Positions 6,809 to 18,465 of a DNA stretch of 49,951 bases are shown here, in pieces. Under the pieces are notes generated by a model, which was not told the origin of the DNA, searched no databases, and saw only the letters and a program-made list of their open reading frames with translations. The position numbers were made by a program, and so were the translations under genes. Origin of the DNA: Neoroseomonas soli (GTDB lineage: Bacteria > Pseudomonadota > Alphaproteobacteria > Acetobacterales > Acetobacteraceae); NCBI RefSeq assembly GCF_018129065.1, contig NZ_JAAEDM010000026.1:1-49951 (forward strand). The letters are read 5' to 3'. Each line of letters opens with the position of its first letter. Within the stretch, counting starts at the first letter, position 1.

Positions 6809-6843
6809 CTCCCTCCGACAAGACGCCCGCTTGTCGGAGGGAG
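6809..6843 (+). terminator. 14-bp perfect hairpin after the enoyl-CoA hydratase gene
   Basis: Arms 6809-6822 and 6830-6843 pair perfectly around a 7-nt loop (ACGCCCG), 31 nt after the stop codon. The run that follows is only partly T-rich. It insulates the pst operon from read-through, and its last base is also the first base of the Pho box. Confidence 0.75.
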
Positions 6844-6860
6844 TGTCATCGATCTTTCAC
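6843..6860 (+). promoter_or_regulatory. Pho box (PhoB-binding site) in front of pstS
   Basis: GTGTCAT-CGAT-CTTTCAC matches the PhoB direct-repeat consensus CTGTCAT-AWAW-CTGTCAY, with two 7-mers 11 bp apart; the second 11-mer continues as CTTTCACAAAT to 6864. It is the only good match seen in the pstS upstream region and lies 100 bp before the pstS start. Low-phosphate activation of the operon by PhoB is therefore expected. Confidence 0.75.
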
Positions 6861-6959: not shown

Positions 6960-7979
6960 GTGAACAGGCGGTCCTTCCTTCTCGGCGCCGGTGCGACGCT
7001 GAGCCTTCCGATCATCGATGCGCGTGCGCAGGGCACGCAGATCACGGGCGCCGGCGCGTCCTTCCCGAACCCGATCTACCAGAAGTGGGCCGAGGCGGCC
7101 CGCGCCGCCGTGGGCGTGCAGCTCAACTACCAGTCGGTCGGCTCGGGCGCCGGCATCAACCAGATCCGCAACCGCACGGTCGATTTCGGCGCCACCGACG
7201 CGCCGCTGACCGCCCAGCAGTTGCAGGAAGGCAACCTGCTGCAGTTCCCGACGGTGATGGGCTCCATCGTGCCGATCATCAACGTCCCGGGCATCGAGGA
7301 CGAGCAGCTCAAGCTGACCGGCGAGGTGCTGGCCGACATCTTCCTCGGCAAGATCACCCGCTGGAACGACCAGCGCATCGTGGCCCTGAACGCCGGCGTG
7401 AACCTGCCCGCGCAGGCCATCGCGCCGGTCTACCGCGCGGATGGCTCGGGCACGACCTTCGTGTTCACCTCCTACCTCTCGGCCACCTCGGCGGAGTGGA
7501 AGGACAAGGTCGGTGCGGCGACCTCGGTGCGCTGGCCCGTCGGCAACGGCGCCCGCGGCAATGAGGGCGTGGCCGGCGGCGTGCGCAACACGCGCGGCGG
7601 CATCGGCTATGTCGAGAACGCCTACGCCACCGCCAACCGCCTGGTGACGACGCAGCTTCGCAACAAGGCCGGCAACTTCGTGAAGCCGAAGATGGAGAAC
7701 TTCGTCGCCGCGGCCACCAACGCCGACTGGAGCGTGCCGGGCTTCGCCGCGAGCATCATCGACCAGGCCGGCGCGAATTCCTGGCCGATCGTCTCGCCGA
7801 CCTTCATCCTGCTGCCGACCAACCCGCAGGATCCCGCGCGCAGCGCCCATGTCCGCCGCTTCTTCGACTGGGCCTTCACCAGCGGGGACGACCTGGCGCG
7901 GGAACTCGAGTACATCCCGCTGCCGGCGGCGACCAAGACCGCCATCCGTGCGGCGTGGCGCACCCAGTTCGGCGCCTGA
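6960..7979 (+). CDS. pstS: Phosphate ABC transporter substrate-binding protein PstS
   Basis: A 339-residue periplasmic phosphate-binding protein that delivers phosphate to PstCAB. The mature part opens with ITGAGASFPNPIYQKW, the PstS phosphate-loop signature, and carries GSGAGINQI, DFGATDAPL and YRADGSGTTFVF, which form the anion site. The start is the GTG at 6960, preceded by GGAGAGAG. This gives an N-terminus with NRRSFLLGAG, a twin-arginine-like signal ending near ARAQ, which is unusual because most PstS proteins use Sec. An upstream in-frame ATG would run into the Pho-box region and is rejected. It is the first gene of the pst-pho operon and is followed by a hairpin that may raise its level over pstCAB. 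Confidence 0.95.
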   Translation: MNRRSFLLGAGATLSLPIIDARAQGTQITGAGASFPNPIYQKWAEAARAAVGVQLNYQSVGSGAGINQIRNRTVDFGATDAPLTAQQLQEGNLLQFPTVMGSIVPIINVPGIEDEQLKLTGEVLADIFLGKITRWNDQRIVALNAGVNLPAQAIAPVYRADGSGTTFVFTSYLSATSAEWKDKVGAATSVRWPVGNGARGNEGVAGGVRNTRGGIGYVENAYATANRLVTTQLRNKAGNFVKPKMENFVAAATNADWSVPGFAASIIDQAGANSWPIVSPTFILLPTNPQDPARSAHVRRFFDWAFTSGDDLARELEYIPLPAATKTAIRAAWRTQFGA

Positions 7980-11526: not shown

Positions 11527-12243
11527 ATGGCCGAGGCCTTTTCCTCGCTCACCAAGCCGACCATCCTGGTGGTCGAGGACGAGGCGCCGCTGCTCACGCT
11601 GCTGCGCTACAACCTCGAGAAGCAGGGCTTCAAGGTCGACGAGGCCGCCGACGGCCAGGAGGCGCTGCTGCGCGTCTCCGAGGCCCGCCCCGACCTGGTG
11701 CTGCTCGACTGGATGCTGCCCGCGCTCTCGGGCATCGAGGTCTGCCGCCAGTTGCGCCGCCGCCCCAACACGCGTGACCTGCCCATCATCATGGTCACGG
11801 CACGCACCGAGGACCAGGACGCGGTGCGCGCGCTCGACACCGGCGCGGACGACTACATCGCCAAGCCCTTCGTGATGGAAGCGCTGCTCGCGCGCATCCG
11901 GGCGCTGCTGCGCCGTTCGGGCAGCGTCGCGGTGAAGGGCACGCTGACCTACCGCGACCTCACGATGGACCAGGACGCGCACCGGGTCTCCCGCGGCGGG
12001 CGTGCGCTGCACCTCGGGCCGACCGAGTACCGGTTGCTCGAGTTCTTCCTGCAGCACCCGGGGCGCGTCTTCACGCGCGAGCAACTGCTCGACGCCGTGT
12101 GGGGCCGCGACATCCATGTCGAGCCGCGCACGGTGGACGTGCACATTCGCCGGCTGCGCAAGGCGATCAACGGCACGAACGAGGTGGACCTCATCCGTAC
12201 CGTCCGCTCCGCAGGCTACGCGCTGGACGCCGAGGACCACTGA
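11527..12243 (+). CDS. phoB: Phosphate regulon response regulator PhoB
   Basis: A 238-residue OmpR/PhoB-type regulator. The receiver domain (residues about 11-125) has the acidic pair in VVEDEAP, phospho-acceptor Asp61 in LLDWMLP, and the conserved Lys in YIAKPF. The C-terminal winged helix (about 140-235) contains GPTEYRLLEFFLQHPGR and the recognition region with VEPRTVDVHIRRLRKAI. TVRSAGYAL ends the domain as in PhoB. It is the last gene of the pst operon and would bind the Pho box at 6843-6860, giving positive autoregulation. The phoR gene, often next to phoB, is absent here. Confidence 0.94.
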   Translation: MAEAFSSLTKPTILVVEDEAPLLTLLRYNLEKQGFKVDEAADGQEALLRVSEARPDLVLLDWMLPALSGIEVCRQLRRRPNTRDLPIIMVTARTEDQDAVRALDTGADDYIAKPFVMEALLARIRALLRRSGSVAVKGTLTYRDLTMDQDAHRVSRGGRALHLGPTEYRLLEFFLQHPGRVFTREQLLDAVWGRDIHVEPRTVDVHIRRLRKAINGTNEVDLIRTVRSAGYALDAEDH

Positions 12244-12248
12244 TCCCC

Positions 12249-12273
12249 GGCGCGGCGCGGGTCAGGCCGCGCC
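12249..12273. terminator. Hairpin between convergent phoB and the DUF3141 gene
   Basis: GGCGCGGC (12249-12256) pairs with GCCGCGCC (12266-12273) around a 9-nt loop. It overlaps the stop codon of the leftward gene, and only 18 bp separate the two coding ends, so it probably serves both directions. Confidence 0.5.
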
Positions 12274-14517
12274 GCCTTCCCCGCCCCGGCGGCCCTGCCG
12301 GCCCTGGGCCTCGGCCGCGGCGGCCTTGCCGCCACGCGGGCCGGCGGGCCGCAGCCGGCGCACCTTCTCGTCCTCGACCGGCCCGCCATCGCCGAGGAAG
12401 ATGCGCTCCACCGCGGCAAGGCGTTGGGCCAGCGCCTCCGGCAGCTCACCCGCGGCCGTCACCACGTCGCGCAGCATGGCAAAGGCCGCGCTGCGCGGTT
12501 CCTGGTCCTCGGGCAACAAGTCCGGCAGGGCGGCGATCGCGGCTTCCTCGTCGATCAGCAGGCGGAAGAATTGCAGGCGCATCGTCTGCTTGAACTGCGG
12601 CAACGGCACCCGCTTGTCTCCCTGCGCCTTGCGGAGTTGGCGGATGACGGCGAAGGACCGCTCCTCGGCCGCGCCGGCCGGGAGGCGGATCCAGATCAGG
12701 GCGCGCAGGACGGCCTCGAGCAATCCGCCCTCGCTCATCGTCGCCCGCAGCCGCTCGGTGGCGAGTTCGACGAATTGCCGGTGGTCCGGCGACTCCCCGG
12801 GCCGGTGCCGCAGCGGCACGCCCTTCATCGCGACGCCCGTGAGCGCCTGCACCAGCGGCGAGCCATAGATGTCGAGGAAGGTGCGCTCGCTGAGTGCATC
12901 CCGCTGTCGGCCGTAGGTCGTCAGTGCCGATTCCACGGCGTTGGAGAAGAAGCGTTCTGCCGCGCGCCCCGCATTCGCCGCATCCACCTGGCGACGGTTC
13001 GCTTCCGCCAGGCGGGCGGCGGGGGGCACCCACGCCATGAACGGGTTGCGGTCCGAGAACAGCGTGTAGCCCAGGCGGGCGGGGTGGAGTTGGGCGAATG
13101 CCTCCGCGATCGCCGGTGTCGCCATGGCGCGCAGCGCGGGCTGGGCGAACATCCGGTAGAGCGCGAGGTTGGCTTCCGAGACCCGGCGCGCGGCGGCGAA
13201 GCGCGCCTCGTCCTCCGGGTCGGTGCCACCGTATGCGGTGAGGTCCGCCAGGCCGCGCGACTCGAAGGTGACCGCCCATTCCCCCACATCCGGGCCGACC
13301 GGCGCCTTCCCCTGCTCCAGCACCGCCTCGTAGAGGCCCGGCGGCAGCACGTCGATCATGTCCATGTTGGACGCGAACTCGTTGTGCTCCTTCCGCGCCA
13401 CACCGCCCGAGACGAAGATGCCGAGGTGCCCGACGTTGCCGTGCACGGAATAGACGATGGTCTGCCCGTGCGTCCGCAGGTCGTTCATGTCGGCATAGAG
13501 GTCGCTGATCCAGGAGAGCGCCTGCGCCGGTGGCGTGATCTCGTCGCCCTCCGAGCAGAAGACGATGATGGGCGAACGGATCGCGCGCAGGTCGACGCGC
13601 GTGCCGTCGGAGAAGGTGAGTTCCCCCGTCGCCAGGCGGTTGCCGACGAAAAGCTGGTCGACAATGAATTGCATTTCCTCGGCGTTCAGCGTGACATGCC
13701 CGCCCCACCACTTCTCGAAGCCGAGGTAGCGGTCGCCCGCCTTGTCGACGTCGGCCCAGACCTCGTACTGCTTGGTCCAGTAGGTATTGGCCGGGTTGCC
13801 GCTCTCGAAGTTCGTCACCAGCCAGGCACCGTCGAACTTCCCGCCGCCGAGGTCGCCGGTCATGGCGGCCAGCCATGATCCGCCGAGCAGCCCGCCGAGG
13901 TAGCGCATCGGCGCCTTGCCCCGCGTGCCGGCCCAATAGGACAACGGCGATCCTGCCACCATCAGCGGCCCGAAGACCTCGGGGCGGATCGCGGCGGCCA
14001 TCATCAGCGCCCAGCCGGCCTGGCAATTGCCGATGGCGACCGGCCTGCCCTCGGCGTCGGCGTGGCGGCGGCCGACCTCCTCAGCGAAGGCGACGATGGC
14101 CCGGACCACGTCCTCGATCGTCTGGCCGGGCTCGGGCTCGGGGCGGAAGCCGACGAAGTAGCAGGGGTGGCCGGCATTGATGGCGACGCCGATCTCGCTG
14201 TCCGCCTTGAAGCCGCCGATGCCCGGGCCGTGGCCGGCGCGCGGGTCGATGACGATGAAGGGGCGGTTCAGCGGGTCGGTGGGCGGTGCGCCGGCCGGGG
14301 GTGTCACGCGCGCCAGCCAGTAGTTGACCGGGCGCGGCAGGTCGCGCCCGTCCATCACCACCTCGAAGCCGAAGGTGAGGACGTGACGCATCGGGTCGTC
14401 CTCGCTCTCCAGGAAAGCATTGCCGCGCCGGCGCAGCACGTCGAGGAACAGCACCGAGCGCTGCCAGGCGTCCAGGGCATAGGCCGCCCAGGGGAAAAGG
14501 CCAGGATCGGGGGTCAT
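12262..14517 (-). CDS. DUF3141 protein, PHA-synthase-like alpha/beta hydrolase
   Basis: A 751-residue cytoplasmic protein. Residues about 85-370 form an alpha/beta-hydrolase core resembling class I/III polyhydroxyalkanoate synthases. The nucleophile box is GNCQAG with Cys165 (PhaC-type GxCxGG-like, not Ser), the acid is Asp325 in SEGDEITPP, and the His is His364 in NVGHLG. The C-terminal half (about 400-751) is helical, charged and unlike PhaC. Such proteins are annotated as DUF3141 and their activity is not established to my knowledge. The start at 14517 is chosen for GAGGAGA just upstream, in place of an ATG 78 nt further up. The divergent region contains an FNR/FixK box, and the neighbours serve phosphate and polyphosphate metabolism. 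Confidence 0.83.
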   Translation of the reverse strand: MTPDPGLFPWAAYALDAWQRSVLFLDVLRRRGNAFLESEDDPMRHVLTFGFEVVMDGRDLPRPVNYWLARVTPPAGAPPTDPLNRPFIVIDPRAGHGPGIGGFKADSEIGVAINAGHPCYFVGFRPEPEPGQTIEDVVRAIVAFAEEVGRRHADAEGRPVAIGNCQAGWALMMAAAIRPEVFGPLMVAGSPLSYWAGTRGKAPMRYLGGLLGGSWLAAMTGDLGGGKFDGAWLVTNFESGNPANTYWTKQYEVWADVDKAGDRYLGFEKWWGGHVTLNAEEMQFIVDQLFVGNRLATGELTFSDGTRVDLRAIRSPIIVFCSEGDEITPPAQALSWISDLYADMNDLRTHGQTIVYSVHGNVGHLGIFVSGGVARKEHNEFASNMDMIDVLPPGLYEAVLEQGKAPVGPDVGEWAVTFESRGLADLTAYGGTDPEDEARFAAARRVSEANLALYRMFAQPALRAMATPAIAEAFAQLHPARLGYTLFSDRNPFMAWVPPAARLAEANRRQVDAANAGRAAERFFSNAVESALTTYGRQRDALSERTFLDIYGSPLVQALTGVAMKGVPLRHRPGESPDHRQFVELATERLRATMSEGGLLEAVLRALIWIRLPAGAAEERSFAVIRQLRKAQGDKRVPLPQFKQTMRLQFFRLLIDEEAAIAALPDLLPEDQEPRSAAFAMLRDVVTAAGELPEALAQRLAAVERIFLGDGGPVEDEKVRRLRPAGPRGGKAAAAEAQGRQGRRGGEGGAA

Positions 14518-14903
14518 CGCTCGTCTCCTCATGCATGGGACCGCAACGGCCGGGCCGACGGTCAGCGCCCTAAGCGACGGCCCTGACGCGCGCATCCCAC
14601 GGAAAGCTACTGCCAGACTGTCGCCTCGCCGGGCCGCATGACGCCATTCCCTTTCGGGACACGACTACGCGACCTGAGCTGCGGCTTCTTGAGTGACGCT
14701 TTTTAGCCTGGACCGGCTGGCCGAAATTTGATTCGCATCAAGACCGATTGGGCCGTCACGGGACCATTCTGAAACATTGGCGCTCGTTGCCATGCCCGCC
14801 CCTTCGCTGCGCGCTCGGTGCGCGCCGCGGGCGCCGGGCGGACGAAACGCGGAGCCACGCGCAGGCGGCGACGGGCCCGAGCAAAGGCAGGAGAGACATA
14901 GGG
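14518..14903. other. 386-bp divergent intergenic region
   Basis: It separates the leftward DUF3141 gene from the rightward 151-residue gene and ppk2. Its one clear signal is the FNR/FixK palindrome at 14728-14741. No small gene with a convincing ribosome site was seen, and a single CTGTCGC near 14610 is not enough for a Pho box. Confidence 0.6.
14728..14741. promoter_or_regulatory. FNR/FixK-type box (TTGAT-N4-ATCAA)
   Basis: TTGAT-TCGC-ATCAA is a perfect match to the FNR/FixK consensus palindrome. If centred at -41.5, as in activated promoters, transcription would start near 14776, and a weak -10-like CATTCT is at 14765-14770, in the expected place for the rightward genes. It lies 163 bp before the 151-residue gene and 211 bp before the DUF3141 start. 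Control by a CRP/FNR-family regulator under low oxygen is inferred. Confidence 0.7.
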
Positions 14904-15359
14904 ATGGCCATTACCGGAAAGAACTTCAGCGCCCAGGCCATCTGGGATCACATTTCGGGCAAGAAGCGCGCGGAGGAGGATGCGCGGCTCGCCCACGAGG
15001 CGGATGCGAAGGCGGCGCGCGACGCGCTCCGCGAGGCCTTCGAGGCCCGGGAGGTGAAGCCGGAGGCACTGGACAACATCGCCACCGCCGTCAGCCGTGC
15101 CGTCGAGCGCGGCGAGAAGGAGGTGCTGCTGTTCCAGTTTCCCTCGGACTGGCTGCCGGACTCGGGTCGCTCCCTGACCACCCACGACCCCCGCTGGCAC
15201 GAAAAGCTCGAGGGCTTCCCGAGGCGGGCCTACGATTACTACGTGAAGGAACTCGCCCCGCGCGGCTTCCAGCTGAAGGTCGAGATCATCGATTGGCCAG
15301 GCGGCATGCCGGGCGACTGCGGCTGGTTCCTCGCCTGGAAGCACCCGGAGGAAGGCTGA
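14904..15359 (+). CDS. Uncharacterised 151-residue protein upstream of ppk2
   Basis: I do not recognise this family. The protein is soluble and charged. Residues about 15-60 are Ala/Glu/Lys/Arg rich and helical. The C-terminal half (about 70-151) looks like a small mixed alpha/beta domain with VLLFQFPSDWLPDSG, RAYDYYVKELAPRGF and CGWFLAWKHPEEG. The ATG at 14904 has GGAGAGA about 8 nt upstream. Only 41 nt separate it from ppk2, so both are probably one operon behind the FNR/FixK box. A role with polyphosphate or in a low-oxygen response is a guess from position only. Confidence 0.75.
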   Translation: MAITGKNFSAQAIWDHISGKKRAEEDARLAHEADAKAARDALREAFEAREVKPEALDNIATAVSRAVERGEKEVLLFQFPSDWLPDSGRSLTTHDPRWHEKLEGFPRRAYDYYVKELAPRGFQLKVEIIDWPGGMPGDCGWFLAWKHPEEG

Positions 15360-15400
15360 CGGCCCCATCCACGACGCGACGAAACCAGGAGAAAGCCGCG

Positions 15401-16315
15401 ATGTCCAAGAAGGACAAGAAGAACAGGAAGGACGGGCGCGGCCAGGATGCCGCGTCGATAGACCCGCCCGCGCCCCGGCCCGCGAAGCGGACGGCGGAGG
15501 CATCCCCCTTCAAGCCGGACGGCCGGGTCACCCGCAAGGCCTATGAGCGCGCGCTCTACGACCTGCATGTGGAACTGGTGAAGCTGCAGATGTGGGCGCA
15601 GGAAACCGGCGCGAAGGTCTGCATCGTCTTCGAAGGCCGCGACGGCGCCGGCAAGGGCGGCACCATCAAGGCGATCACCGAACGCGTCAGCCCGCGAGTC
15701 TTCCGCGTCGTCGCCCTGCCCGCGCCGACCGAGCGCGAGAAGTCGCAGATGTACATCCAGCGCTACATCCAGCACTTCCCGGCGGCCGGCGAGATCGTGA
15801 TCTTCGACCGCTCCTGGTACAATCGCGCCGGCGTCGAACGGGTCATGGGCTTCGCCAACGACGAACAGTCGCACTACTTCCTGAACATGGCGCCGGGGGT
15901 CGAAAAGGCCATGGTCGATTCCGGCATCATCCTCCTCAAGTACTGGCTCGAGGTGAGCAAGGAGGAACAGACCCGCCGGCTCGAGGCGCGCATCGACGAC
16001 GGGCGGAAGCTGTGGAAGCTCTCGCCCATGGACCTCAAGTCCTACAGCCGCTGGTACGATTATTCCCGCGCGCGGGACGAGATGTTCAAGGCCACCGACA
16101 CGTCCTGGGGGCCCTGGTACGTCGCGCATTCGGACGACAAGAAGCGGGCGCGGCTGAACATCATCCGCCACCTGCTGCACCACATCCCCTACGAGGAGCC
16201 GAAGCGCGCGAAGGTGGAACTGCCGAAGCGCCAGAAGCAGGGCGACTACGTCGAGCCCGACTATCCCTGGAAGGTGGTCGCGGACACGGTGGGCACGCCG
16301 CCGCCCACCGCCTGA
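15401..16315 (+). CDS. ppk2: Polyphosphate kinase 2
   Basis: A 304-residue PPK2-family enzyme that transfers phosphate between polyphosphate and nucleoside diphosphates. Walker A is GRDGAGKGG near residues 79-87, Walker B is FDRSWYNRAGVERVMGF near 135-151, and the lid region carries EEQTRRLEARIDD. The C-terminal SRARDEMFKATDT and WYVAHSDDKKRARLN segments are family hallmarks. The N-terminal 45 residues are Lys/Pro-rich and probably disordered. Length and lack of a second domain fit class I (NDP-phosphorylating) enzymes. The ATG at 15401 follows CAGGAGAAAG. It probably shares a transcript with the upstream 151-residue gene. Confidence 0.93.
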   Translation: MSKKDKKNRKDGRGQDAASIDPPAPRPAKRTAEASPFKPDGRVTRKAYERALYDLHVELVKLQMWAQETGAKVCIVFEGRDGAGKGGTIKAITERVSPRVFRVVALPAPTEREKSQMYIQRYIQHFPAAGEIVIFDRSWYNRAGVERVMGFANDEQSHYFLNMAPGVEKAMVDSGIILLKYWLEVSKEEQTRRLEARIDDGRKLWKLSPMDLKSYSRWYDYSRARDEMFKATDTSWGPWYVAHSDDKKRARLNIIRHLLHHIPYEEPKRAKVELPKRQKQGDYVEPDYPWKVVADTVGTPPPTA

Positions 16316-16339
16316 CGCCGCTGGGGCGCGGGGTCCGTC

Positions 16340-17236
16340 ATGCAGGATGCCGATGCGCTCCTCGCCCTGGCGGTGAGGATTTCCCTCATCGCCTTCATGG
16401 TGGGCTCGCTGCTCGACATGGGCCTCGAGATGCGCGTGCGGGATGCGCTGGCCTGCCTCGGCAACCGGCGCTTCCTGGTGCGTGTGCTGGCGTTCGGGTT
16501 CCTGGCGGGGCCGGCGCTCGCCTGGGCGATCGGCCGGGCGCTCGGGCTCGACCCGTCCTACGCGACCGGGCTCATGCTGGTGGGCCTGACGCCCGGCGCG
16601 CCCTTCCTGCCGGCCATGGTGCGGCGCGCGAAGGGCGACATGCGCCATGCGGCGGCGATGATGCTGGTGACGGCCCTCGCCACGGTGGCGGTGCTGCCCG
16701 TCGCGACGCCATTGATCGCCGAAGGCCTGACCGTCGATGCCTGGACCGTGGCCAGGCCGATCCTCGTCCTGGTGCTGCTGCCACTCCTCATCGGCATGGC
16801 GGTGTTCGCCATGGCGCCCGCCATCGCCGCGGCGCTGCACCCCTGGGCCAGGGCGGTGGGCGGCATCGCGGCGCTCGCCCTGCTGGCGCTCTGCGTGGTC
16901 GTCTATGGCCGCAGCATGGCCGGGACCTTCGGGCAGCGGGTGATCGCGGCCGAGGTCCTCTTCCTCGGCCTGCTCACCCTCGCCGCCTACCGCTCCGGCG
17001 GCGGGCTCGCGCAGCGGGAACGCAGCGTGCTCGGCCTTGGCATGTGCACGCGCAACCTCGGGGCGGCGCTGGCGCCGCTGCTCTCGATGGAGGCGCCCGA
17101 CGAGCGGGCGGTCGTCGCCGTCGTGCTGGCGCTGCCGGTGCAACTCGTCTGCGCCCTCGTCGCGGCGGCCCTCTTCGCGCGGGGCGCGACGTCGCAGGAC
17201 ACAAACGGTAGGACGACGACATGCCGGTCTGGCTGA
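16340..17236 (+). CDS. Bile acid:sodium symporter (BASS)-like membrane transporter
   Basis: A 298-residue protein with about nine or ten hydrophobic segments and few long loops. The GLMLVGLTPGAPFLPAMV stretch (about residues 74-92) and GMCTRNLGAALAPLL (near 234-248) resemble the crossover motifs of the BASS/SBF fold, which exports or imports organic anions using Na+. Substrate is unknown. The start at 16340 lies 24 nt after ppk2 and its last 16 nt overlap the next gene, so read-through from ppk2 is possible. The assignment rests on fold-like motifs; an auxin-carrier-like protein is a less likely alternative. Confidence 0.68.
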   Translation: MQDADALLALAVRISLIAFMVGSLLDMGLEMRVRDALACLGNRRFLVRVLAFGFLAGPALAWAIGRALGLDPSYATGLMLVGLTPGAPFLPAMVRRAKGDMRHAAAMMLVTALATVAVLPVATPLIAEGLTVDAWTVARPILVLVLLPLLIGMAVFAMAPAIAAALHPWARAVGGIAALALLALCVVVYGRSMAGTFGQRVIAAEVLFLGLLTLAAYRSGGGLAQRERSVLGLGMCTRNLGAALAPLLSMEAPDERAVVAVVLALPVQLVCALVAAALFARGATSQDTNGRTTTCRSG

Positions 17237-18465
17237 TCCCCATCGCCTACATGATGGCGAGCATGCTCCTCGCCGGCGTGCTGCCGCGCGTCGAGCACGC
17301 GCTCGTGCCCCATGTCGACCTCGGAATCTCGGCCTCCTCGGCGCTCGCGGCTCTGTCGGCGGTCGCCTCCGGCATGATGGCGCTGACGGGCATCGTGTTC
17401 ACGGTCGCCTTCGTCATGGTGCAGTTCAGCGCGGTCACCTACTCGCCGCGCTTCGCCGCCCGCTTCGCAAACGACCCGCTGCTGTTCCATGCGCTCGGCA
17501 TCTTCTTCGCGACCTTCAGCTACGCCCTCACCGCCACCGCCTGGGTGGACCGGGAGGGGACGGGGCGGGTGCCGATCGTCTCCTGGCTCGTCTGCGTCGT
17601 GATGCTGGTGGCCAGCCTGCTCGTCTTCGCCATGCTGATCCGCCGTCTCGCCGACCTGCAGATCGGCAATACGCTTCGCTTCCTGGGCGACCGCGGGCGG
17701 GAGATAATCGCCGAAGGCTTCTCCAGCGCCTACGACGCCCCGCCCACGCATCCGGCGCGCGCGCCCGACGCGCCGGAAGGCCCGCCAACCCAGACCCTAC
17801 GATTCGGGGGCTCCCCCCGTTACGTCGAGCGCCTCGACATCCCTGCGCTGGCCGCGCTCGCCCGCCGGGCGGGCGGCCGGGTCGTCATGGGTTGCGCCGT
17901 CGGGGACATGGTCACCAGCGGGTCCGTGCTGCTGCGCGTGCATGGCGGCACGGCGCAGATCCCCGAGGCGGAACTGTTGCGCGCGATTGCCCTCGGTCTC
18001 GAACGCACCTTCGAGCAGGACCCGAAGTATCCCCTCCGCCTGCTGGTGGACATCGCGATCAAGGCGCTCTCCCCCGCCATCAACGACCCGACCACGGCAG
18101 TGCAGGCGCTCGACCAGATCGACGACCTGCTGCGGCGCCTGGCGCGTCAGAAGCTCGATGTCGGCCGCGTGCGCGACGCCGAGGGCACGCTGCGCGTCGT
18201 CTTCCCGACGCCGAACTGGGAGGACTACCTTTCCCTCGCCTTCGACGAGATCCGCATGTTCGGCATCACCTCCATCCAGGTGCTGCGGAGGCTGCGCGCC
18301 GCGCTGGTGGGGCTCGAGGAACTGATCATCGAGGATGAGCGCGCGGGGCCGGTGCGGCGCTACATCGCCCATATCGACGCGGCGATCGAGGGATCCAGCC
18401 TCGACGAACTCGACCGCGGCTCGGCCCGGCGGGAGGACCCGCAGGGCCTCGGCCTTTCGCGCTAA
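17221..18465 (+). CDS. DUF2254 membrane protein
   Basis: A 414-residue protein with four N-terminal membrane segments (about residues 5-22, 38-68, 84-104 and 117-140) and a long soluble C-terminal region. VQFSAVTYSPRFAARF followed by LGIFFATFSYAL, and later ALSPAINDPTTAVQALDQIDDLL, are characteristic of the DUF2254 family, whose function is not established. The C-terminal part is predicted cytoplasmic. It begins inside the end of the BASS-like gene (16-nt overlap, different frame). Its TAA overlaps the stop codon of the convergent deoxyribosyltransferase gene. Confidence 0.85.
   Translation: MPVWLIPIAYMMASMLLAGVLPRVEHALVPHVDLGISASSALAALSAVASGMMALTGIVFTVAFVMVQFSAVTYSPRFAARFANDPLLFHALGIFFATFSYALTATAWVDREGTGRVPIVSWLVCVVMLVASLLVFAMLIRRLADLQIGNTLRFLGDRGREIIAEGFSSAYDAPPTHPARAPDAPEGPPTQTLRFGGSPRYVERLDIPALAALARRAGGRVVMGCAVGDMVTSGSVLLRVHGGTAQIPEAELLRAIALGLERTFEQDPKYPLRLLVDIAIKALSPAINDPTTAVQALDQIDDLLRRLARQKLDVGRVRDAEGTLRVVFPTPNWEDYLSLAFDEIRMFGITSIQVLRRLRAALVGLEELIIEDERAGPVRRYIAHIDAAIEGSSLDELDRGSARREDPQGLGLSR

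Follow-up and report, generated by a model that had tools for sequence, protein, structure and literature searches.

Organization of the locus

In the present study, a computational analysis was performed on a stretch of 49,951 nucleotides from Neoroseomonas soli (contig NZ_JAAEDM010000026.1, positions 1 to 49,951; hereafter, the window), in which a DUF3141 gene diverges from two same-strand genes, one encoding an undescribed protein of 151 residues (u151) and the other polyphosphate kinase 2 (PPK2, gene ppk2). The original prediction had read these genes, together with a perfect TTGAT-N4-ATCAA box between DUF3141 and u151, as a possible storage-polymer module, and the three genes and the box were indeed found at their positions. 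We conclude that the u151-ppk2 pair is real and conserved, and that it is probably controlled by oxygen, judging from the box; DUF3141 and the acetyl-phosphate enzymes are its recurrent, looser partners. The features are as follows.

12262..14517, minus strand: DUF3141 gene, 751 residues from the ATG at 14517; polyhydroxyalkanoate (PHA)-synthase-like alpha/beta hydrolase with Cys165-Asp325-His364
14728..14741, no strand assigned: FNR/FixK-type box TTGATTCGCATCAA between the divergent genes DUF3141 and u151, in their promoter region
14904..15359, plus strand: u151, 151 residues, undescribed; predicted to have an N-terminal helix at residues 10-48 and an alpha/beta domain at the C-terminus
15401..16315, plus strand: ppk2, 304 residues, one-domain polyphosphate kinase 2
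16340..18465, plus strand: two membrane-protein genes 3' of ppk2, of the SBF family (16340-17236) and DUF2254 (17221-18465)

The region separating DUF3141 and u151 measures 386 bases and holds TTGATTCGCATCAA, which starts 176 bp before u151 and 224 bp before DUF3141; an alternative DUF3141 start at the upstream ATG at 14595 would give a protein of 777 residues. The spacing between u151 and ppk2, on the same strand, is 41 bases. An Rfam scan of 10-20 kb returned no RNA element at the gathering score, and promoter and terminator scans of 12200-16400 returned none between DUF3141 and u151.

Conservation of the neighborhood

We compared 61 u151 loci by tblastn; more than one search contributed to this set, which does not represent random sampling. 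It omits the repeats L025-L028 and L058 (a repeat of L087) and includes the partial gene L076, which was excluded from the tree described below; partner counts were taken from tblastn because a simple gene caller missed genes, such as ppk2 in L084. A PPK2-family gene lies within 8 kb of u151 in 25 of the 61 loci and within 250 bp in 17, and the 8-kb neighborhoods also contain DUF3141 (18 loci), Pta (16), AckA (15), FabI (11), and PflB (5). In 40/61 loci, PPK2, DUF3141, Pta, or AckA is found within 8 kb; one of the latter three is found in 22, and PPK2 plus a partner of that kind in 7.

The gene order differs among lineages. In the window's genus and in another genus, g205, u151 is followed by ppk2, and the reverse order occurs in L078, L177, and L187. 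The order DUF3141, u151, pta, in some cases with ackA and fabI, was found in L060, L061, L065, L067-L069, and L184; the order pta-ackA-fabI-u151-DUF3141 in L087 and L088; and the order DUF3141-pta-ackA-fabI-u151 in L090 and Rhodobacter sp. CZR27. These apparent operons, in which DUF3141 and u151 are joined by (MaoC-)Pta, AckA, and FabI, lend support to the carbon side proposed for the module. Further relatives of u151 occur beside other genes: in Sinorhizobium meliloti ml45, one labeled 'histidine kinase' is the next gene after a run of arcA, an ornithine carbamoyltransferase gene, and arcC; in Sinorhizobium sp. K101, another is flanked by an NhaC-family gene and a convergent ppk2, with arcA nearby; and in two Rhizobium plasmids, a relative lies about 6 kb from ppk2.

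Two sets of genomes not chosen by context were also drawn, one of 120 genomes from the order and one of 190 genomes, representing 168 genera, from the class. In the order draw, u151 was present in 17 genomes and DUF3141 exceeded the cut-off in 23, with both in 16 (Fisher P 1.3e-13, kinship ignored), and PPK2 was common (97/120). Among the 27 u151 matches in this draw, counted after merging two rows lying in one frame, 8 have DUF3141 at a distance of 8 kb or less, at least 7 have PPK2 no more than 3 kb away, and at least 11 have one or the other; under uniform placement, the 8 of 27 near DUF3141 would have a P of about 6e-12, kinship being ignored. In the class draw, a DUF3141 match above 700 bits was found in 5/8 u151 genomes versus 9/190 overall (Fisher P 3.4e-6); two of these five genomes share one genus, and the two genes are at most 8 kb apart in 4 of the 5.

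Non-conservation of the neighborhood had been named in advance as one finding that would overturn the original prediction. Acetobacteraceae, Azospirillum, Rhodobacter, and other alphaproteobacteria retain the neighborhood of DUF3141, u151, and ppk2, with the gene order changed. A tree was built from 60 u151 proteins, some branches of which are long and of unsure placement; on it, the minimum number of changes was 9 for the PPK2 link, 12 for the DUF3141/Pta/AckA link, and 8 for the box, so these links are not a single inherited block. Of 43 loci, the window counted, 4 have the SBF gene near u151 and 4 have the DUF2254 gene there, and both genes are weak candidates for membership in the module.

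The FNR/FixK-type box and its candidate regulator

In the window, TTGATTCGCATCAA is the sole perfect match to the box motif, and allowing up to one mismatch gave three matches versus a shuffle mean of 0.25. The whole genome (5.24 Mb in 216 contigs) contains eight perfect TTGATN4ATCAA sites, and the reversed-motif control none. By our own gene calls, seven of the eight are intergenic, with intergenic DNA making up about 14% of 186 kb sampled from this genome, and the eighth (L019, 6172) overlaps the first bases of a doubtful 82-residue gene call. One of these boxes precedes a COX1-family gene resembling ccoN, and another a Crp/Fnr-family gene. The genome also encodes a Crp/Fnr protein (L130) with an N-terminal C-x2-C-x7-C, one more Cys, and the residues E-T-V-S-R in its DNA-binding helix; an oxygen-labile FNR would be expected to show this spacing of cysteines and this recognition helix. 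Two components of an FNR/FixK regulon, namely an operator-type site in the promoter region and an FNR-type regulator in the genome, are present.

Across the 61 loci, TTGAYN4RTCAA occurs within 300 bp upstream of u151 in 15 and the reversed motif in none. In 13 of these 15, the box starts 69-90 bp before the start codon, the other two being L190 (130 bp) and the window (176 bp). All six g205 genomes matching u151 (L175, L179, L180, L183, L185, and L188) show the order perfect box, u151, ppk2, with the box starting 80-90 bp before u151. In Rhodobacter sp. CZR27, the perfect box TTGATCAGGATCAA lies 96 bp before the operon running from DUF3141 to u151. In L079, the closest relative, the aligned site departs from TTGAYN4RTCAA at one position and the flanks scarcely align, and the S. 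meliloti ml45 relative has no strict box in the preceding 300 bp. The box claimed for the shared promoter region has therefore gained support, since an FNR-type box stands upstream of u151 in several separate branches as well, and both the box and the neighborhood exceed chance.

Other perfect boxes were seen beside further genes. At L021 6198 (own genome, contig C14) and L082 11092, the box adjoins a DUF2252-like gene with a SulP permease near; DUF2252, a family tested in L082, also adjoins DUF3141 in L081 and L146. At L022 2-2716 (own genome, contig C45), a perfect box lies directly 5' of a chaperonin (cpn60) gene, and DUF2950 is encoded nearby; DUF3300-DUF2950 pairs recur near u151 in L175, L176, L178-L180, L183, L185, and L188, and also on rhizobial plasmids.

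Protein families

The window PPK2 scored 314.2 bits with PF03976 and 352.6 bits with TIGR03707, the equivalog model of the Pseudomonas aeruginosa type (cut-off 301.8), and can thus be assigned to that type. Its best matches among solved structures are 5llb/5ll0/4yeg, 6dzg, and 3czq, which presumably come from Francisella and Sinorhizobium.

The u151 protein belongs to an alphaproteobacterial family, relatives of which were found in at least 19 of 398 genomes in a phylum search scoring no more than 10 candidates per genome, and which is also present on Sinorhizobium and Rhizobium plasmids. No Pfam family matched u151 at E 0.01, no NCBIfam model matched it or any of 20 relatives, and no solved-structure sequence matched it below E 0.16. 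Pfam at E of 1 or less gave 35 scattered families on the 20 relatives, the 25 listed being weak matches without a common theme. The AlphaFold2 model of u151 has a mean predicted local distance difference test (pLDDT) score of 86.6, and the fold search gave no confident match; an apparent resemblance of the predicted C-terminal domain to nucleic-acid-binding folds (IF3-C/Alba/R3H-like) may be taken as a lead only. The family looks new, with no model in Pfam or NCBIfam and no description met in the literature on related terms. The label 'histidine kinase' carried by the relatives L192, L196, and L201 (about 150 residues, in Rhodobacter and Sinorhizobium plasmid records) is not supported by their sequences, as Pfam at E 0.01 found no kinase domain in them.

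Some u151 copies have other surroundings. Within the window's genus, a paralogue at L030 8019-8471 (own genome, contig C21), like those in L091-L096, adjoins MlaC and MlaA near metF (families tested in L094); TTGAYN4RTCAA starts 69-73 bp upstream in 4 of these 7 (L092, L094, L095, and L096) and is absent from the other 3, the own genome included. A second u151 copy in Azospirillum (L063, L070, L073, and L075) has glycosyltransferase-type genes in its vicinity, along with a tripartite tricarboxylate transporter, as annotated in the related L194, and none of the energy genes nearby, and the u151 context in Pseudoroseomonas cervicalis likewise showed no energy gene nearby.

The DUF3141 protein is a clear member of PF11339 (859.5 bits against a gathering cut-off of 29.7, E 1.6e-258, profile positions 1-581 of 582), the sole Pfam family reported for it at E 0.01, where PhaC_N (PF07167) was not found. 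The Cys-Asp-His triad (C165, D325, and H364) is invariant in 9/9 aligned DUF3141 proteins, and the predicted fold, from a model with a mean pLDDT of 68.9, is a PhaC-type alpha/beta hydrolase; the proposed PHA-synthase-like triad thus proved sound. The match to the PhaC class III model TIGR01836 reached 22.9 bits against a cut-off of 365.3. The lipase-like box of PhaC is G-x-C-x-G, and all nine aligned proteins have G-N-C-Q-A-G at the Cys instead. Other DUF3141 genes with their own upstream box were found in Rhodobacter CZR27, L146, L175, and the DUF2252-DUF3141 region of L082. Elsewhere in the own genome, a second DUF3141 gene (L140 4150-13341, contig C13) stands in a cassette of fabI, MaoC-Pta, ackA, and DUF3141, followed by a protein without a family, an adenylate/guanylate cyclase-type protein, and a patatin, an order that looks similar by eye in L152 and L154.

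Phosphate control

Phosphate limitation had been proposed as a second signal for the locus, and this part was not supported. A scan with the Pho box consensus, allowing up to three mismatches, found no site between DUF3141 and u151 and two weak matches in the whole window (shuffle mean 1.53). One of these two, at 6843-6860 with three mismatches, precedes the first gene of the pst cluster, at 6960, by about 100 bp, which is within chance expectation for the window. The locus does directly follow pst, phoU, and a phoB-type gene (phoB and pst being named by position and family), an order common to L079, as would be expected if it were a phosphate-starvation module belonging to the preceding Pho regulon; since no Pho-box-like site exists near 14.5 kb and the pst/phoB neighbors are missing in the remaining relatives drawn, we regard that explanation as very unlikely.

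Interpretation of the locus

With slightly more confidence than doubt, we interpret u151-ppk2 as an oxygen-limitation operon for non-respiratory ATP supply, in which u151 is an accessory protein not described before; the ties of this operon to a cassette of DUF3141, MaoC-Pta, AckA, and FabI are loose. An FNR/FixK regulator binding at 14728-14741 would switch on u151-ppk2 when oxygen is short, and perhaps the divergent DUF3141 gene as well. By shifting phosphate between polyphosphate and ADP or GDP, PPK2 could then maintain ATP and GTP while oxidative phosphorylation slows. Because u151 adjoins ppk2, pta-ackA, and, in Sinorhizobium, arginine deiminase genes, it may be a small partner of non-respiratory ATP-making enzymes. 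DUF3141 would represent the carbon side and, with MaoC-Pta, AckA, and FabI (encoded here on other contigs), might handle acyl- or hydroxyacyl-CoA, a route that can finish in acetyl phosphate and ATP. As the u151-ppk2 pairing recurs in related bacteria, it probably helps to keep up the energy supply when respiration slows.

Several observations weigh against this interpretation. No strict box was found within 300 bp of u151 in 46 of the 61 loci, including every Azospirillum locus, and the window box, at 176 bp, falls outside the 69-90 bp range. In 21 of the 61 loci, none of ppk2, DUF3141, pta, and ackA lies within 8 kb, and four of these loci are boxed; moreover, 3 of the 25 PPK2 neighbors (L064, L071, and L077) are just 32-35% identical to the window PPK2. 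The loci are not independent, as 10 of the 17 u151 genomes in the order draw, the own genome included, belong to the window's genus. The own genome has five PPK2 matches, among the matches listed, and two canonical PhaC genes (with PhaC_N) elsewhere, so that neither enzyme type is unique to the locus. Finally, of the other operon starts in these loci, 377 in number, 34 are also boxed, versus 15 of 61 for u151 (Fisher P 0.0014), a comparison weaker than that with the reversed motif, and part of the box signal may therefore come from oxygen-regulated, box-rich islands.

These boxed operon starts would also suit an explanation by co-regulation only, in which u151, ppk2, and DUF3141 are separate members of the FNR/FixK regulon clustered in oxygen-response islands and u151 has a role unrelated to polyphosphate or acyl-CoA. 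The g205 islands also carry SulP permeases, DUF3300/DUF2950 (L180), and many more boxes, and the four boxed u151 paralogues by MlaC/MlaA genes have none of the tested partners. However, u151 and ppk2 form a same-strand, short-gap pair in separate branches, which is tighter than island membership needs, and DUF3141-u151 pairs occur in Azospirillum loci lacking a strict box; we consider co-regulation alone rather unlikely. The box might instead serve u151-ppk2 alone, leaving the divergent DUF3141 as a bystander with its own promoter, which would be compatible with an oxygen-limitation operon of u151 and ppk2. The start of the box is indeed closer to u151 than to DUF3141, and among the u151 loci compared, DUF3141 shares its promoter region with u151 in the window and L079 only, a fact that also counts against a common module. 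On the other hand, DUF3141 genes elsewhere have upstream boxes of their own, as described above, and we lean against the bystander role while taking it seriously. Chance neighborhood without common function or control could account for the loci in which the tested partners are missing, but it conflicts with the placement of u151 near DUF3141 in the order draw and with the recurrence of the links in several families, and it can hardly be believed.

The claim of a single low-oxygen module for carbon and phosphorus is thus supported with respect to the conserved neighborhood, the FNR-type box, and the carbon-side operons, and unsupported with respect to phosphate control. Half of the claim of an undescribed system stands, since the scanned libraries contain no name for u151 or for the assembly; the claim is limited by the published FNR control of a ppk2 gene in Rhodobacter capsulatus (PMC4634722).

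A broader proposal, which we offer tentatively and think improbable as a whole, is that u151 is the founding member of a family of dedicated partner proteins for non-respiratory ATP-making phosphotransferases (PPK2 for polyphosphate, AckA for acetyl phosphate, and, in Sinorhizobium, the carbamate kinase of arginine deiminase metabolism). FNR/FixK would then build one low-oxygen energy-reserve module in which a common small adaptor or regulator serves polyphosphate, carbon from acyl-CoA or polyester, and substrate-level phosphorylation together. It was suggested by ArcC, the third ATP-generating phosphotransferase found beside u151 after PPK2 and AckA, which is a correlation only. The locus bears on how respiring bacteria sustain ATP without oxygen and on polyphosphate as an ATP reserve, and a conserved operon with an oxygen-type box, PPK2, and an undescribed protein offers a direct handle on this question. 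Sinorhizobium and Rhizobium, which have members of the family on plasmids, meet low oxygen as a part of nodule life.

Comparison with known systems

The window PPK2 resembles, along most of its length, the one-domain PPK2 enzymes of known structure (5llb/5ll0/4yeg, 6dzg, and 3czq; E 1.7e-76 or better) and differs from them by its operon context and the oxygen-type box. The nearest regulatory parallel is RCC02684, the ppk2 gene of R. capsulatus, which is directly activated by FnrL (2.25-fold) and has the FnrL chromatin immunoprecipitation site TTGATGCGTGTCAA (PMC4634722). Direct FNR-type control of a PPK2 gene was shown there and is predicted here from the box; unlike in the window, no u151-like or DUF3141 partner is described in the available part of that report.

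Compared with PhaC (9knl, 9knj, 9knk, 6k3c, 5xav, 5hz2, and 5t6o), DUF3141 has about 360 additional C-terminal residues, and the last Gly of G-x-C-x-G is replaced by Ala. FixK-type control by low oxygen, which the box suggests as a possibility for DUF3141, is known for the gene of a PHA-synthase-like alpha/beta hydrolase in Bradyrhizobium diazoefficiens, where PhaC2 (bll6073) is a FixK2 target that the authors assume not to be an active polyhydroxybutyrate (PHB) synthase; unlike in the window, a link to ppk2 is not described in the available portions of these papers (PMC10888616, PMC6515984). In some Rhizobiales, phbC is under predicted FnrN/FixK control, so that computed FNR/FixK-type sites stand at an alphaproteobacterial PHB-polymerase gene as they do here, and the accessible text mentions neither polyphosphate nor acetate kinase (PMC4999443). 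Candidatus Accumulibacter, of a different phylogenetic group, stores both polyphosphate and PHA and has an FNR motif before pta and phaC, according to the part of the report at hand (PMC6446978), and its FNR-type sites at acetyl-phosphate and PHA-synthase genes alike resemble the arrangement described here.

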